Assembly (NCBI GenBank): GCA_023954045.1
Contig: JAMLIR010000010.1
Coordinates: forward strand, 1 to 64,000
DNA length: 64,000 nt
Source of the DNA: Burkholderiaceae bacterium
GTDB taxonomy: Bacteria; Pseudomonadota; Gammaproteobacteria; Burkholderiales; Burkholderiaceae_E
Reading direction: 5' to 3'
Each line of letters begins with the position of its first letter. The stretch's first letter is position 1. The notes below the pieces were generated by a model. The model saw only the letters and a list, made by a program, of their open reading frames with translations. It was not told the DNA's origin and made no database searches. A program made the position numbers and the translations under genes. Shown in pieces: positions 37,660 through 43,082 of this stretch.

Positions 37660-38514
37660 CTAGCGGAACACGACGGTCTTGCCGCCGTTCAGCAGGATGC
37701 GGTGCTCGGCGTGCCACTTGACCGCCCGCGCCAGCACGACGTTCTCGACGTCGCGGCCGATGCCGGTCAGCGTCGCGACGTCCATCGAGTGGTCGACGCG
37801 CTCGACGTCCTGCTCGATGATCGGGCCTTCGTCGAGGGCGGTCGTCACGTAGTGCGCGGTCGCGCCGATCAGCTTGACGCCGCGCTCGTGCGCCTGCCCG
37901 TACGGCTTGGCGCCCTTGAAGCTCGGCAGGAACGAGTGGTGGATGTTGATCGCGCGACCTTCGAGCCTTCGGCACAGGTCTTCCGACAGCACCTGCATGT
38001 AGCGCGCGAGCACCACCAGCTCGACGCCTTCGGCGGCGACGATCTCCATCAGCCGCGCCTCGGCCTGCTGCTTGTTCGCGGCGGCGACGGGAACGTGGTG
38101 AAACGGCACGTTGTACGACGCGGCCAGCTGGTAGAAGTCGCGGTGGTTCGAGACCACCGCGCGGATGTCGATCGGCAGCAGCCCCGAGCGGTGCCGGAAC
38201 AGCAGGTCGTTCAGGCAGTGGCCGAGCTTCGAGACGAGGATCAGCGTCGGGGCCGGCCGCGCGGCGTCGAAGAACGCCCAGCGCATCCCGAACGTCTCGC
38301 CGACCGGCGCGAAGGCGCGCTGCAGCGACTCGACCGAGGCATCGGCCGAGGCCGATTCGAACTGGACGCGCATGAAGAACAGGCCGGTGGCGCGGTCGTC
38401 GTACTGGGCGGCCTCGAGGATGTTGCCGCCGTGCTCGAGCAGGAAGCCCGAGACCGCGTGGACGATGCCCGGGCGATCCGGGCACGAGAGCGTGAGGATG
38501 AAGCCGTCTGTCAT
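37660..38514 (-). CDS. purU: Formyltetrahydrofolate deformylase
   Basis: A 284-residue enzyme that hydrolyses 10-formyl-THF to THF and formate, balancing one-carbon pools. An N-terminal ACT-type regulatory domain (FILTLSCPDRPGIVHAVSGFL) precedes the formyltransferase fold. The catalytic region is INIHHSFLPSFKGAKPYGQA (Asn, His) and TAHYVTTALDEGPIIEQD (Asp). Length is normal. Confidence 0.95.
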   Translation of the reverse strand: MTDGFILTLSCPDRPGIVHAVSGFLLEHGGNILEAAQYDDRATGLFFMRVQFESASADASVESLQRAFAPVGETFGMRWAFFDAARPAPTLILVSKLGHCLNDLLFRHRSGLLPIDIRAVVSNHRDFYQLAASYNVPFHHVPVAAANKQQAEARLMEIVAAEGVELVVLARYMQVLSEDLCRRLEGRAINIHHSFLPSFKGAKPYGQAHERGVKLIGATAHYVTTALDEGPIIEQDVERVDHSMDVATLTGIGRDVENVVLARAVKWHAEHRILLNGGKTVVFR

Positions 38515-38603
38515 GGGAGGTCCGGTGCGCGCCGCGTGCGCTGGAGGGCAGGGCGCAAGTATATCGGTGGCGGCGGCGCGGCCGCGCGGCATTGCGCCGT
38601 GGC

Positions 38604-39041
38604 TCAGGCCGCTCGCGCCGGCCAGCGCAACAGCGGCCCGATCGCGTCGAGCGTGTTCTTCAGCACCAGCCCGTACTCGGTGTCGCCCTCCATGACCAGC
38701 GCGCGCTCGAAGAACAGCCGGTCGGCGTCCTCTTCGCCGCGCAGCAGTCGCAGGTAGCTCGGCGCGTCGGCCGCGACGCGCAGCGCCACCGCGCCGCCGT
38801 CGGGCACCGCGCGAAAGCCGTTCGCGGTGAGCATCAGGCGGCAGCGGATCCCGAGGTCGCAGACCTCGATCTCGACGACCCGGTCGGCGAGCTGCGCCTC
38901 GACGTCCGGCGTCAGGTGCGGACGCAGCACTCGATCGAGCGCCAGCGCCAGCACGAACGACGGCGGGCGGATCGGCAGCCGCGCGACGAAGCGGCGCAAC
39001 GCGGCGGGAATCGGCAAGGCGGTCGGGCGGGCAGCGGTCAT
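38604..39041 (-). CDS. ubiT: Anaerobic ubiquinone biosynthesis accessory factor UbiT
   Basis: A 145-residue SCP2-domain lipid-binding protein. In E. coli UbiT is required for oxygen-independent ubiquinone synthesis and probably binds the prenylated intermediates. The segment LRLLRGEEDADRLFFERALVMEGDTEYGL (about residues 97-125) is the family hallmark, where small radius changes occur in the SCP2 fold. GAGGAG precedes the ATG. It is the last gene of the nnrS-ubiU-ubiV-ubiT run, 10 bp after ubiV. Confidence 0.9.
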   Translation of the reverse strand: MTAARPTALPIPAALRRFVARLPIRPPSFVLALALDRVLRPHLTPDVEAQLADRVVEIEVCDLGIRCRLMLTANGFRAVPDGGAVALRVAADAPSYLRLLRGEEDADRLFFERALVMEGDTEYGLVLKNTLDAIGPLLRWPARAA

Positions 39042-39051
39042 CTCGGGCTCC

Positions 39052-39981
39052 TCAGGTCCAGCTTCGTTCGAGGCCGGGGCGGCGATGCGCGAATCCGTCG
39101 ACGAGCCCGCCGGGCAGGCTCATCGCGGCGAGCGCCGCGCGCGCCTGCGCGGGGTCGGCGCCGCCGTTGAGCACCTGGTCGAAGGCGGCCAGCACCTCGC
39201 CGAAGCGCTGTGCGACCGGCGACAGCCGCACCCGGCTCGCGCCGGCGGCGCGAAGCGCCGCGCCGTCGCCGATCAGGCACTGCTGCGCCGCCGACTGCGT
39301 CTGGATCCCGTTCAGCGTGAGGAACGGGGCGCCTTCGCCGGTCGCGAGCAGCAGGCCGTCGGGATGCTCGAGGCAGCGGAACCCGCACTCGTCCTTGTTC
39401 AGGTGGTAGTGGCGGGCGGTGAAGCAGCGCGCCGAGAACGCGAGCGGCAGCCGCCCGAACGCGAACACCTCGGATGCGATCGGCGTGTCGCGGCCAGGTC
39501 CGCCCGGCACCGGCGCGCCGGGAGCGTTGACCAGCCCGATCGCCTCCAGGCTCAGTTCGACCGGCGCCACCCAGCGGATCGCGCCGAGCGCGGCGTGCTC
39601 CTCGAGCGCAGGCCGGCTGTAGACGTTGACGTGCGGGCCGAGCACGAACGGCCGTCCCGCCAGCGCGCGCAGCGCCGACGCGTCGCCCGCCTCGACCAGG
39701 AACTCGTCCTGCGCGGCGAGCCGGCGCATCTCGCGCAGGTCGGATTCGGACTCGAGCAGCGCCTGGGTGGCGAGCACGACCTCCTTGCCGCAGCCGGCGA
39801 GCTCGCGCGCCAGCGCGAGCCAGTCCTCGTGCTTCATCTCGTGGCGGCGCGAGCAGACCACCTCGCCGAGCACCACGGTGTCGGCCGGCGAATCGGCGAC
39901 TTCGCCGTAGAAGTCGATCAGCGTCTTGCGGGGCCAGTAGTAGAGCACCGGTCCGACGGTGAGCTGGATGCGGGGATTCAT
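39052..39981 (-). CDS. ubiV: Oxygen-independent ubiquinone hydroxylase subunit UbiV
   Basis: A 309-residue U32-peptidase-like iron-sulfur protein. The four cluster ligands known from E. coli UbiV are matched by Cys43, Cys186, Cys199 and Cys203, the last three with identical spacing (13 and 4). UbiV forms a heterodimer with UbiU and hydroxylates ubiquinone precursors without O2, using prephenate-derived oxygen in E. coli. AGGAG precedes the ATG, 16 bp after ubiU. Confidence 0.95.
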   Translation of the reverse strand: MNPRIQLTVGPVLYYWPRKTLIDFYGEVADSPADTVVLGEVVCSRRHEMKHEDWLALARELAGCGKEVVLATQALLESESDLREMRRLAAQDEFLVEAGDASALRALAGRPFVLGPHVNVYSRPALEEHAALGAIRWVAPVELSLEAIGLVNAPGAPVPGGPGRDTPIASEVFAFGRLPLAFSARCFTARHYHLNKDECGFRCLEHPDGLLLATGEGAPFLTLNGIQTQSAAQQCLIGDGAALRAAGASRVRLSPVAQRFGEVLAAFDQVLNGGADPAQARAALAAMSLPGGLVDGFAHRRPGLERSWT

Positions 39982-39997
39982 CTCGACGGGGCTCCTG

Positions 39998-41026
39998 TCA
40001 GCGCCACGGACGGTTGTAGGCGCCCAGCGTGTGCTGCTGGCCTTCGGACCAGCGCCCGAGCGCGGCAATCCACTGCGGCTGCACCGCGAACCGCGAGGGC
40101 TGCGCCGCGCAGTGGTCGATCGCCGCGCGCCAGACGCGGGTGACCTGCTCGACGTAGGCGGGGCTGCGCTGGCGTCCCTCGATCTTGATCGCCGAGACGC
40201 CGATCTCCATCAGCTGGGGCAGCACGGCCAGCGTGTTCAGGCTGGTCGGCTCCTCGAGCGCGTAGTCGCGCACGCCCTCGACGTCGAAGCGCCCCTTGCA
40301 CAGGGTCGGGTAGCCGCGCGGCTCGTCGGGCGCATAGCGGTCGATCAGCACCTCGTTCAGGCGCGCGCGCACGCCGTCGGGGGCGTCCTCCCAGCGCACC
40401 GCCGACGGCGGCGAGCAGACGCCCGCGGTGTTCGGCGACTGGCCGGTCGCGTAGGACGACAGCGCGCAGCGTCCCTCGACCATCACGCAGAGGCTGCCGA
40501 ACCCGAACACCTCGATCTCGGCCGAGGTGTGGCGGCAGACGTGGCCGACCTGCGACAGCGTCAGCACGCGCGGCAGCACCGCGCGCTGGATGCCGTAGCG
40601 CTCGCGATGGAACTCGATCGCTTCGTAGGTGGTCGCCGACGCCTGCACCGACAGGTGCAGGCGCAACTGCGGCTGGTGGTCGCGCGCATACGCAAGCACC
40701 GCGGTGTCGGCGCAGATCAGCGCGTCGGCGCCCAGCGACGCCGCGACGTCGACCGCGCGCCACCAGCGCTGCGGCTCGCGCGCGTCGGCGAACGTGTTCA
40801 GCGCCATCAGCACCTGCGCGCCGCGCGCGTGCGCGTAGGCGATGCCCTCGCGCGCCTGGTCCTGGTCGAAGTTCAGCCCGGCGAAGTTGCGGGCATTGGT
40901 CGCGTCCTTCAGCCCCATGTAGACCGCGTCGGCGCCGGCGTCGACGGCGAGCTTGAGCGCTCGCAGCGAGCCTGCGGGGCAGACGAGGTCGGGCTTGCGA
41001 GGTGCGCGGGTTCGGTGTTCGGTCAT
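39998..41026 (-). CDS. ubiU: Oxygen-independent ubiquinone hydroxylase subunit UbiU
   Basis: A 342-residue U32-family protein. Cys180, Cys187, Cys204 and Cys243 reproduce the exact spacing of the 4Fe-4S ligands in E. coli UbiU (169, 176, 193, 232). The U32 blocks PDLVCPAGSLRALKLAVDAGADAVYMG (about residues 12-38) and SAIKIEGRQRSPAYVEQVTRVWR are also present. It pairs with UbiV for anaerobic ring hydroxylation. It lies 53 bp downstream of nnrS on the same strand. Confidence 0.95.
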   Translation of the reverse strand: MTEHRTRAPRKPDLVCPAGSLRALKLAVDAGADAVYMGLKDATNARNFAGLNFDQDQAREGIAYAHARGAQVLMALNTFADAREPQRWWRAVDVAASLGADALICADTAVLAYARDHQPQLRLHLSVQASATTYEAIEFHRERYGIQRAVLPRVLTLSQVGHVCRHTSAEIEVFGFGSLCVMVEGRCALSSYATGQSPNTAGVCSPPSAVRWEDAPDGVRARLNEVLIDRYAPDEPRGYPTLCKGRFDVEGVRDYALEEPTSLNTLAVLPQLMEIGVSAIKIEGRQRSPAYVEQVTRVWRAAIDHCAAQPSRFAVQPQWIAALGRWSEGQQHTLGAYNRPWR

Positions 41027-41079
41027 CGGTGGGTTCCCGGGTGCGGGCGCGCGGGCTGCGCCCTGGTGGAGGCGGCCGC

Positions 41080-42423
41080 TCATCCGGGCCGTCCGTCGAT
41101 GCGCGGCCGCCCGTACCAGCCCGCGTGCCTGACGCTCCAGGTGAGCACCGCCGCGGTCCACAGCGCCGCCGCGGCGAGCAGCAGCACGGGCAGGTCGGGC
41201 CGCCAGGCCGCGGCGATCCGCAGCACGACGGCGGCCTGCACGACGAGGAACAGCGCCCAGGCGAGTCCGTCGATTGCGTGGGCCCGCCCGGCCTGGCCGG
41301 CGCTCACGCGAGTCACGAACGCGAACTGGATCGATCCGAAGAAGCCCATCGCGAGCGCGTGCAGCCCGGCGAGCGAGGCCTGGCCCGCGCCGCGGCCCGT
41401 CCACGCCTGCGCCGCGGCCACCGCCTGCAGCGCCAGCGCGACGCCGAGCCAGGCGAAGCCGATGTCGAGCATCGCCAGCAGCCGGATCCTCAGGTTCTGG
41501 ATCGCGCGCCAGCGCAGCGCGAGCCCGAGCACGAGCGCCGCGGCGGCCGCGTCGACGGCCATCGTCGCGAGCGCCGCTGCGCCGCCGCGCGCGAGCGCCG
41601 CGCCCAGCGGCGCCTGCGCCGGGAGCACCGCGAGCAGCACCACAAGCAGCCAGAGCGGGTGGCGCTCGTCGAGTCGCGGCACCGCGACGCCGAGGAACGG
41701 CACCATCCGGTGCATTGCGGTCGCGAAGACCGGCGCCAGGAACGCCCACAGTCCGGCGAAGAGCGAGGCGCCCAGCAGCGCGTCGTCGTCGATCGCGAGG
41801 CCCGCGGCAGCGGCCCAGAGCACGGCGGCGCCGACCCCGCAGGCGATCGCGATGATCCGCAGGTGCGTGCGGTCGGCCGCGGCGCTTCGCGTCAGCAGCG
41901 CCGCGAATCGCCAGGCGAACAGGGTCCAACCCGCGGCGGCGATCGCCAGGCCGAACGCCGCGATCCGCGCGTCGAGGTGCACGCCGGCGAGGAACACGCC
42001 CCAGCCCGCGAGCCAGGCCACGGCCGTCGGCAGCAGCCGGCGCGCCGGGACGGCTGCCAGCCCCAGCCAGCGCGGCCCGGCCGTGAACAGGAAGCCTGCG
42101 AAGAACATCGGCATGAACGAGAAGCCCATCAGCAGCGCGTGCGCATGCGCCGGCGCGACGGCCCAGCGCAGCTCCGACCCGGCTGCGACCTGCGCGACCA
42201 GCGTCGCGAGCCACCACAGTGCGCTCGTCGAGAGCATTGCCGAGCCCACCAGGAAACCGAGCCGATGCGGGGCGTCGAGCAGGCGGGCGAAGCGCCACGG
42301 CCCGGCCGATGCGTCGCGTCGCGCGGGACGCGGCGGCCTGCCGGCGGCGTGAGCGGAGGGCACGGAGGAGCGACAGCGCGTGGCGGAGAACCGGGAACCC
42401 ACTTTAGGCGGCACAATCCGCAT
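41080..42423 (-). CDS. nnrS: NnrS-family haem-copper membrane protein
   Basis: A 447-residue polytopic protein with about 12 hydrophobic segments. His-rich sites appear in PAHAHALLMGFSFMPMFFAGFLFTAG (about residues 90-115), ATAMHRMVPFLGVAVPR and GLHALAMGFFGSIQFAFVTRV. NnrS is linked to nitric oxide tolerance in denitrifiers and is normally under FNR-family control. The ATG at 42423 opens the frame, but a predicted -10 overlaps it, and the first ~45 residues are Pro/Arg-rich. A GTG at 42363 may be the true start. It heads the ubiUVT run. Confidence 0.88.
   Translation of the reverse strand: MRIVPPKVGSRFSATRCRSSVPSAHAAGRPPRPARRDASAGPWRFARLLDAPHRLGFLVGSAMLSTSALWWLATLVAQVAAGSELRWAVAPAHAHALLMGFSFMPMFFAGFLFTAGPRWLGLAAVPARRLLPTAVAWLAGWGVFLAGVHLDARIAAFGLAIAAAGWTLFAWRFAALLTRSAAADRTHLRIIAIACGVGAAVLWAAAAGLAIDDDALLGASLFAGLWAFLAPVFATAMHRMVPFLGVAVPRLDERHPLWLLVVLLAVLPAQAPLGAALARGGAAALATMAVDAAAAALVLGLALRWRAIQNLRIRLLAMLDIGFAWLGVALALQAVAAAQAWTGRGAGQASLAGLHALAMGFFGSIQFAFVTRVSAGQAGRAHAIDGLAWALFLVVQAAVVLRIAAAWRPDLPVLLLAAAALWTAAVLTWSVRHAGWYGRPRIDGRPG
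42401..42406 (-). promoter_or_regulatory. -10 element matched to the FNR-type box
   Basis: On the minus strand the bases read TAAAGT. The centre is 32 bp from the centre of the FNR-type box, the spacing of a class II activator promoter (box at -41.5). Transcription would begin near 42394, downstream of the ATG at 42423. Confidence 0.5.
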
Positions 42424-42428
42424 GCGCC

Positions 42429-42442
42429 TTGCGCCATATCAA
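42429..42442 (-). promoter_or_regulatory. FNR/Anr/NnrR-type binding box for nnrS-ubiUVT
   Basis: On the minus strand the bases read TTGATATGGCGCAA, matching the FNR-family half sites TTGAT and (C/A)(G/T)CAA around four bases. It faces nnrS with a matching -10 downstream. FNR-family regulators respond to low oxygen or nitric oxide. It could also act on the divergent MarR gene. Confidence 0.65.
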
Positions 42443-42458
42443 GTGGAACGGGCGCTTC

Positions 42459-42476
42459 GCAGGCCGAGTGGCCTGC
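42459..42476. promoter_or_regulatory. Perfect inverted repeat upstream of the MarR gene
   Basis: GCAGGCC (42459-42465) and GGCCTGC (42470-42476) are perfect 7-bp arms around GAGT, 73 bp before the MarR ATG. A -10-like CATAAT follows at 42508-42513. The size and position suit a MarR-dimer operator. Confidence 0.4.
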
Positions 42477-42548
42477 AGGGTCATCGCGCGAAGCCGCGGC
42501 GATCACGCATAATCGGCTCAATCCGCCTTCGCTCGAGATCCGACATCG

Positions 42549-43082
42549 ATGAGCCGTTCCGTCGCCGCATCGCTTCCGCGCGCCGGCGCCCAGGCCTTGC
42601 CCGCGCATCCCGCCGGGCAGAGCCAAGAGGCGACCGAGGCGCTTCAGAACTTCCGCGTCATCTTCCGCTCCGCGCGGCGTCACTTCCACGAGGTCGAGGA
42701 GCGCTGCGGAATCAGCGGCTCGCAGCTCTGGGCGCTGACGGTCGTCGTGCAATCGCCCGGGATCCGCGTCAAGGACCTCGCACGGTCGATGGCGGTCCAG
42801 CAGTCGACGGCCAGCAACCTCGTCGAGCAGCTGGCGCGCCAGGGCCTGCTCCGGCGCGCGCGCGAGAGCGCCGACCAGCGCATCGTCCAGTTGTATCCGA
42901 CCGAGGCCGGGCAGGAAGCGATCGCCCGGGCACCCAAGCCGCTGGTCGGCATCCTTCCCGACGCGCTGTCTCGGCTCGACCCGAAGCGACTCGCGACGCT
43001 GAACCGGCTGCTCGACGAGATCGTCAGGTCGATGCGCTCGTCGGACCAGTCCGCGCGGCACACGCCGCTGGCAGACCTCTAG
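42549..43082 (+). CDS. MarR-family transcriptional regulator
   Basis: A 177-residue winged-helix regulator. The recognition region is QQSTASNLVEQLARQGLLRR and the wing is ESADQRIVQLYPTEAG, both typical of MarR. The N-terminal 30 residues are an Ala-rich extension. The ligand is unknown. It is divergent from nnrS and 10 bp upstream of glk on the same strand. Confidence 0.9.
   Translation: MSRSVAASLPRAGAQALPAHPAGQSQEATEALQNFRVIFRSARRHFHEVEERCGISGSQLWALTVVVQSPGIRVKDLARSMAVQQSTASNLVEQLARQGLLRRARESADQRIVQLYPTEAGQEAIARAPKPLVGILPDALSRLDPKRLATLNRLLDEIVRSMRSSDQSARHTPLADL

Follow-up and report, generated by a model that had tools for sequence, protein, structure and literature searches.

A putative nnrS-ubiUVT operon behind a conserved FNR-family box in a Burkholderiaceae bacterium with denitrification genes

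Results

An nnrS-headed ubiUVT gene group

In a 64,000-nt window (the whole stretch of DNA that was analysed, positions 1 to 64,000 of contig JAMLIR010000010.1 in the Burkholderiaceae bacterium assembly GCA_023954045.1), the genes nnrS, ubiU, ubiV and ubiT follow one another in this order on the minus strand at 38604-42363. The best explanation, to which a probability of roughly 0.7 is given, is that nnrS and ubiUVT, perhaps together with purU, constitute one unit that is read from a single class II FNR-family promoter and serves anoxic nitrate respiration. The genes and their order, the conservation of a box and a -10 hexamer before nnrS, and the lack of a second box before ubiU are direct observations, while transcription as one unit from a shared promoter is probably the best reading of them.

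The coordinates bear out the intergenic gaps of 53, 16 and 10 bp given in the original prediction, and the four gene names hold at the Pfam or NCBIfam cut-offs (Table 1); no NCBIfam model exists or matches for the NnrS protein. The claim that all eight Fe-S cysteines are kept at Escherichia coli spacing was likewise correct, as UbiU carries CX6CX16CX38C from C180 and UbiV carries C43 plus CX12CX3C from C186, in agreement with the E. coli spacings, the first of which in UbiV is published only as 'Xn' (PMC6747719). By family membership, UbiU, UbiV and UbiT are predicted to act in anaerobic ubiquinone synthesis. The supposed denitrifying context was also recovered, since narG, nirS and a quinol-type nitric oxide (NO) reductase (479.9 bits to 3ayf) are present in the host genome, which has ubiU in single copy and four NnrS-family matches.

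A conserved FNR-family box before nnrS

The box TTGATATGGCGCAA at 42429-42442, with a -10 exactly 32 bp away (centre to centre), had been predicted before nnrS, and both elements were confirmed and found conserved. CTTGAT-N4-CGCAAGG is present in 10/10 genomes that have nnrS directly before ubiU and readable upstream DNA; the search pattern fixed TTGAT and GCAA only, so that the further C, the flanking C and the GG were free to vary, yet they were invariant. The -10-like hexamer follows the box at an offset of 22 nt in 7 genomes and 23 nt in 3 (counted by eye). Pairwise identity among the ten 140-bp upstream segments falls as low as 0.33, so the box stands out as genuinely conserved within divergent surroundings. 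It overlaps the -35 region and lies 32 bp from the -10 of a predicted start site, which is the geometry of a class II FNR-family promoter. Two loci stand outside the ten-genome count: in G009 the contig ends inside nnrS, and at L042 nnrS lies about 1.35 kb from ubiU, where no such box was found.

The first ATG of the nnrS open reading frame, at 42423, falls between the box and the -10, and GTG 42363 is therefore probably the start; a GTG at the equivalent position is common to several relatives.

The divergent MarR-family gene upstream was considered as the owner of the box and rejected, as the box persists where the neighbour differs (L039 and L016-type loci), moves with nnrS, and is missing from L037, a locus that lacks nnrS and has marR right next to ubiU. 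The MarR-family gene is probably outside the unit.

The box usual before ubiU stands before nnrS

Among the surveyed ubiU loci, 11 have nnrS first. FNR-type boxes were scored out of 10 on both strands of the 300 bp upstream of ubiU, with expectations from shuffles; five duplicated loci were excluded, as were the relatives L033 and L034, which fall below the cut-off. Among the 92 loci without the nnrS-first order, 73 scored 9 or 10 (expected 2.3) and 31 had a perfect box (expected 0.2), while none of the 11 nnrS-first loci had such a box within 300 bp of ubiU (expected 0.1). Therefore, the box that usually stands before ubiU stands before nnrS here, as though a single promoter had been shifted to the head of the longer unit. 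The nnrS-ubiU gaps span 17-67 bp across the 11 loci, and a scan of 38400-42700 found no terminator-like and no sigma-70-like site.

Several findings weigh against the single-promoter proposal. G012 (L037/L021) has marR, ubiUVT and purU, with nnrS and a recognisable box both absent, so neither nnrS nor the box is indispensable. The pattern TTGAT-N4-CGCAA occurs 6 times in the host genome vs. 3 times for the reversed-pattern control; the hybrid box is thus not convincingly rare across the genome, and its sequence by itself proves little. The promoter scan left the TAAAGT -10 uncalled because its rule demands a TTGACA-like -35. As to the regulator, the CxxC-x4-8-C motif occurs in none of the 12 CRP/FNR-type frames recognised by the HTH_Crp_2 profile in this 97.16%-complete genome, that is, no genuine FNR sensor was found, and G008 (about 90% complete) keeps the operon and the box with no Fnr relative at E 1e-20.

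Two further arrangements were noted in the surveyed loci. In the close relatives L038 and L041, narGHJI-like frames, recognised by eye, stand directly before ubiUVT, and nnrS is absent there. At L057 and other Hydrogenophaga loci, TTGATCTGGCGCAA lies before ubiU on the opposite strand and faces a divergent gene that resembles ribonucleotide reductase by eye.

A distinct NnrS clade that co-occurs with ubiU

NnrS proteins were compared across 150 genomes from the host's order, 51 of them with ubiU, which contained 94 NnrS matches above cut-off (three rows below the Pfam cut-off, G049:C54, G125 and G063:C1, were excluded from the counts). The NnrS of the unit belongs to a separate 43-row clade within a 92-sequence tree, from which two short rows were excluded (Shimodaira-Hasegawa-like approximate likelihood ratio support 100, branch 2.42, by a quick method); two members without the signature motif, G139 and G065, were added to the clade from the tree. 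Consistently, a slower tree of 53 sequences, some of which had been selected because they lie near ubiU, gave ultrafast bootstrap 100. The clade signatures are APHR and HRM[IV]P. Five histidines are invariant in 13 clade members, and Q replaces the GH histidine in the host protein and its four nearest sampled relatives. The protein lacks the GFRPF and WHxHEM-type signatures of canonical NnrS, 'canonical' here meaning the clade of the host's own C3 copy; its profile match to canonical NnrS is 99.8%.

Presence of the clade goes with presence of ubiU. UbiU was encoded in 36/43 genomes with the clade and in 15/107 without (Fisher 6e-16, genomes being treated as independent of descent), and in 20/23 vs. 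7/28 families when the 51 family labels were the units (p 1.4e-5, kinship among families being ignored). In contrast, other NnrS proteins showed no association with ubiU (14/39 vs. 37/111). Within 10 kb of ubiU were 10/36 clade genes of ubiU genomes vs. 1/20 other NnrS genes (the latter counted by hand); the 36th clade gene, in G139, is on a different contig from ubiU. In Hydrogenophaga pseudoflava, a culturable denitrifier, about 4 kb separate the clade gene from ubiU. FNR-type boxes were also concentrated before clade genes, three of the 94 nnrS genes with less than 200 bp upstream being excluded: 11/42 had a perfect upstream box (expected 0.0) vs. 1/49 other NnrS, and 16/42 scored at least 9 (expected 1.2) vs. 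7/49, with 26/42 showing none at that level.

The co-occurrence may be explained by denitrification. The NnrS-clade gene and ubiUVT might be co-regulated merely as denitrifier genes, with NnrS having no ubiquinone role, and this is judged slightly better than an even bet. Both are targets of FNR/DNR type, 26/36 clade members in ubiU genomes are more than 10 kb from ubiU or not linked to it, the clade occurs without ubiU in 7/43 genomes, and ubiU occurs without the clade in 15/51. A neighbour scan around clade members not linked to ubiU, which covered 26 of 33 loci and 117 of the 192 frames called there, gave hemerythrin (7) and nitronate monooxygenase (4) as the commonest Pfam families, which are raw counts without a background set and fit the same view. 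However, other NnrS proteins, equally called NO-linked, lack both the ubiU association and, in all except 1/49, the perfect box, and few nar, nir or nor genes stood beside the unlinked clade members, in queries that excluded cNorB and NirK.

Which regulator, and which signal

The FNR/Anr/NnrR-type promoter of the original prediction is supported in its class II FNR-family geometry and conservation, and not in its named regulators. Since none of the 12 CRP/FNR-type frames has CxxC...C, the label 'FNR/Anr', which implies an O2-labile Fe-S sensor, is not supported as written, and FNR/Anr as the O2 sensor was rejected on these 0/12 frames together with 0/16 genus matches. In the box, TTGAT is a half-site of FNR/DNR type and CGCAA one of NnrR type, which makes it a hybrid. 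The NnrR consensus is TTGcgN4cgCAA with half-site CGCAA (PMC1274295), of which only the right half is present, and NnrR control was thus rejected. Compared with the DNR site CTTGATN4ATCAAG, the left half and the flanks match, the right half is CGCAA, and a DNR-like frame is present.

Two candidates were found. The Fnr-like protein (L194) aligns to the Fnr model from position 49 on and falls below the cut-off of that model (Table 1), and a DNR/FtrB-like frame adjoins nirS; both are among the 4/12 frames in which an ExxSR-type helix is found about where it would be expected. Of these two, one is most likely the activator: the Fnr relative, which is FixK-like and lacks the Cys motif, or the DNR-like protein beside nirS.

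CxxC...C was surveyed in 30 of 44 matches to the Fnr-like protein, namely those with loci, the L199 frame being cut at its start. The motif is absent in 16/16 genus matches (L194, L195-L209) as well as in G020 and G041, and present in 12/12 remaining genomes; the motif-less protein may have lost the cluster or may be a separate paralogue. A two-component pair, composed of a PAS/GAF sensor kinase and an OmpR-type regulator, adjoins the Fnr-like gene, an arrangement that would suit a FixK-like protein.

The signal may be NO, acting through the DNR-like protein, or low O2, acting through a FixK-like protein. NO is given somewhat under even odds: the DNR-like frame lies beside nirS with its ExxSR helix kept, and no Fe-S FNR was found, whereas the box before nirS, TTGACTCGCATCAA, is of a different type from the hybrid box, and the hybrid type stands before ccoN, which is an O2-controlled gene. 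In the host genome (G000), the same hybrid box stands less than 60 bp before ccoN and also before two further genes, one for an acetate-CoA ligase and one Hsp20-like, in the latter case in reversed orientation.

Fold and possible role of the NnrS-clade protein

An AlphaFold2 model of the NnrS-clade protein (predicted local distance difference test score 88.2) has 12 long helices. In a fold search, 14 of the top 15 chains (ranks 1-13 and 15) were haem-copper oxidases or NO reductases, with template modelling scores of 0.46-0.63 to the query. No match reached E 0.001 or better, the best being 2.7e-3, a profile comparison with haem-copper proteins gave no support, and a PDB sequence search gave no credible match. 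The modelled likeness is therefore taken as a lead only. Protection against NO is a described role of NnrS. As the operon protein lies outside the canonical clade, NO protection by it can only be inferred, and the NO link of the unit is plausible but unproven.

A closer tie, in which the clade NnrS directly protects or serves UbiU-UbiV, for example by keeping NO off [4Fe-4S] clusters or by providing a haem electron path, is considered rather unlikely. The co-occurrence at genome and family level, the proximity to ubiU and the varied gene order speak for it: the clade gene heads the operon in the host, ends it in three Aquabacterium-type loci and is divergent elsewhere. However, the co-occurrence counts were not adjusted for denitrification, and E. 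coli ubiUVT works without nnrS (no PF05940 match in a control search). Divergent nnrS-ubiU pairs at 179-210 bp were found in G067, G095 and G111, two of them with a perfect FNR-type box between the genes (L225 5073-5086, L226 5031-5044). A bolder version is a long shot: the clade NnrS, with a haem-copper/NO-reductase subunit I-like fold, would be a dedicated fourth component of anaerobic ubiquinone synthesis in Burkholderiales that guards or exchanges electrons with UbiU-UbiV, and the host operon would be its tightest form, under a FixK-like regulator that lost the FNR O2 sensor.

Separate transcription of nnrS and of ubiUVT, from a further promoter within nnrS or in the 53-bp gap, is the least probable of the alternatives. 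The gap, the longest of the three, speaks for it, and internal promoters can escape notice in sequence alone; against it, 0/11 nnrS-first loci have an FNR-type box near ubiU and the scan gave no promoter-like site.

Discussion

In the proposed unit, a switch to anoxic nitrate respiration would lead a CRP/FNR-family activator to bind the hybrid box, centred near -41.5. The activated promoter would then supply O2-independent ubiquinone hydroxylation (UbiU-UbiV with UbiT) along with the NnrS-clade membrane protein, which would probably curb harm from NO; the Fe-S clusters in UbiU and UbiV are perhaps what it protects.

Control of this kind is known from other systems. E. coli ubiUV and ubiT are Fnr-dependent; similar to the host, the same three proteins are encoded, and in the Fnr sites, near -35 of the start site, the TTGAT half is good and the other half poor, but there are two divergent units without nnrS and a genuine Fe-S Fnr (PMC10470549). 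The ubiTUV operon of Sphingopyxis granuli has an FNR box before ubiT, at -40.5, and is induced anaerobically, although mutants in fnr or narG show no induction of ubiU, while nnrS2 belongs to a separate cupin-norB-nnrS2 operon (PMC7713065). In Hyphomicrobium denitrificans, ubiXDTUV lies beside nor genes and is co-regulated with denitrification, but no nnrS-ubiUVT operon is described in the available text (PMC12423496). Further, nnrS is a CRP/FNR-family target in the setting of NnrR/DNR/NsrR control, where the half-site CGCAA recurs, whereas the ubi genes are not involved in that account and the NnrR site is a full one (PMC1274295).

A precedent for the link is a predicted alphaproteobacterial DNR regulon that groups NnrS with a U32 peptidase and with a lipid carrier (PMC2908626, Table 1), the latter two being UbiU or UbiV and UbiT in our reading. 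NnrS and those two genes are thus placed in one NO-responsive regulon, but as a prediction, in another class, as separate genes and before their present naming (PMC2908626). The single-operon link, put forward originally as the point of interest, is therefore foreshadowed as a link and stands as an operon arrangement. No nnrS-ubiUVT operon was found in open-access literature searched for nnrS with ubiU/ubiV, U32, UbiT, yhbT or haem-copper oxidase. The parts are known and FNR/DNR control of ubiUVT is in print; what appears to be new is the packing of nnrS with ubiUVT in a single operon.

UbiU-UbiV have air-sensitive [4Fe-4S] clusters and must function while denitrifiers produce NO. A possible NO-handling gene at the operon head, together with the co-occurrence of its clade, raises the direct question of whether the clade serves ubiquinone synthesis. 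At the family level, the clade also serves as a marker by which one group of NnrS proteins can be told from the others, all of which now share the same annotation.

Neighbouring genes and further features

Table 1. Features of the proposed unit, its surroundings and related elements in the host genome
Feature	Coordinates	Strand	Remarks
nnrS	41080..42363	-	PF05940 162.6 bits, cut-off 28; 427-aa GTG form 162.9 bits
ubiU	39995..41026	-	NF047963 545.8 bits, cut-off 440; four Cys
ubiV	39052..39981	-	NF047965 352.9 bits, cut-off 275; Cys motif
ubiT	38604..39041	-	NF047962 109 bits, cut-off 46.9; SCP2 36.1 bits
purU, possible fifth gene	37660..38514	-	NF004684 419 bits, TIGR00655 340 bits
MarR-family gene, divergent upstream neighbour	42549..43082	+	PF12802/PF01047
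FNR-family box TTGATATGGCGCAA	42429..42442	-	kept in 10/10 aligned genomes
-10-like hexamer TAAAGT	42401..42406	-	TA-T-type hexamer, also in relatives
Fnr-like regulator (L194)	G000:C49:78708-79454		198.9 bits to Fnr model, below cut-off 228
Further hybrid boxes in host genome (G000)	C5:14747-14760, C49:114091-114104, C8:4937-4950

The purU gene may be the fifth gene of the operon. It follows ubiT at 89 bp in the window, and the ubiT-purU distance is 3-89 bp when all 6/6 measurable relatives are included, one of which is without nnrS; as a neighbour of ubiT, purU is odd yet conserved. Elsewhere in the host genome, a TTGATTCGAGTCAA box lies at the start of the cluster G000:C1:187000-195300 (L149). 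Its genes include one for subunit I of a ba3-like haem-copper oxidase (matching 7deg at 171.5 bits), one for a second remote relative and one for a haem O synthase look-alike.

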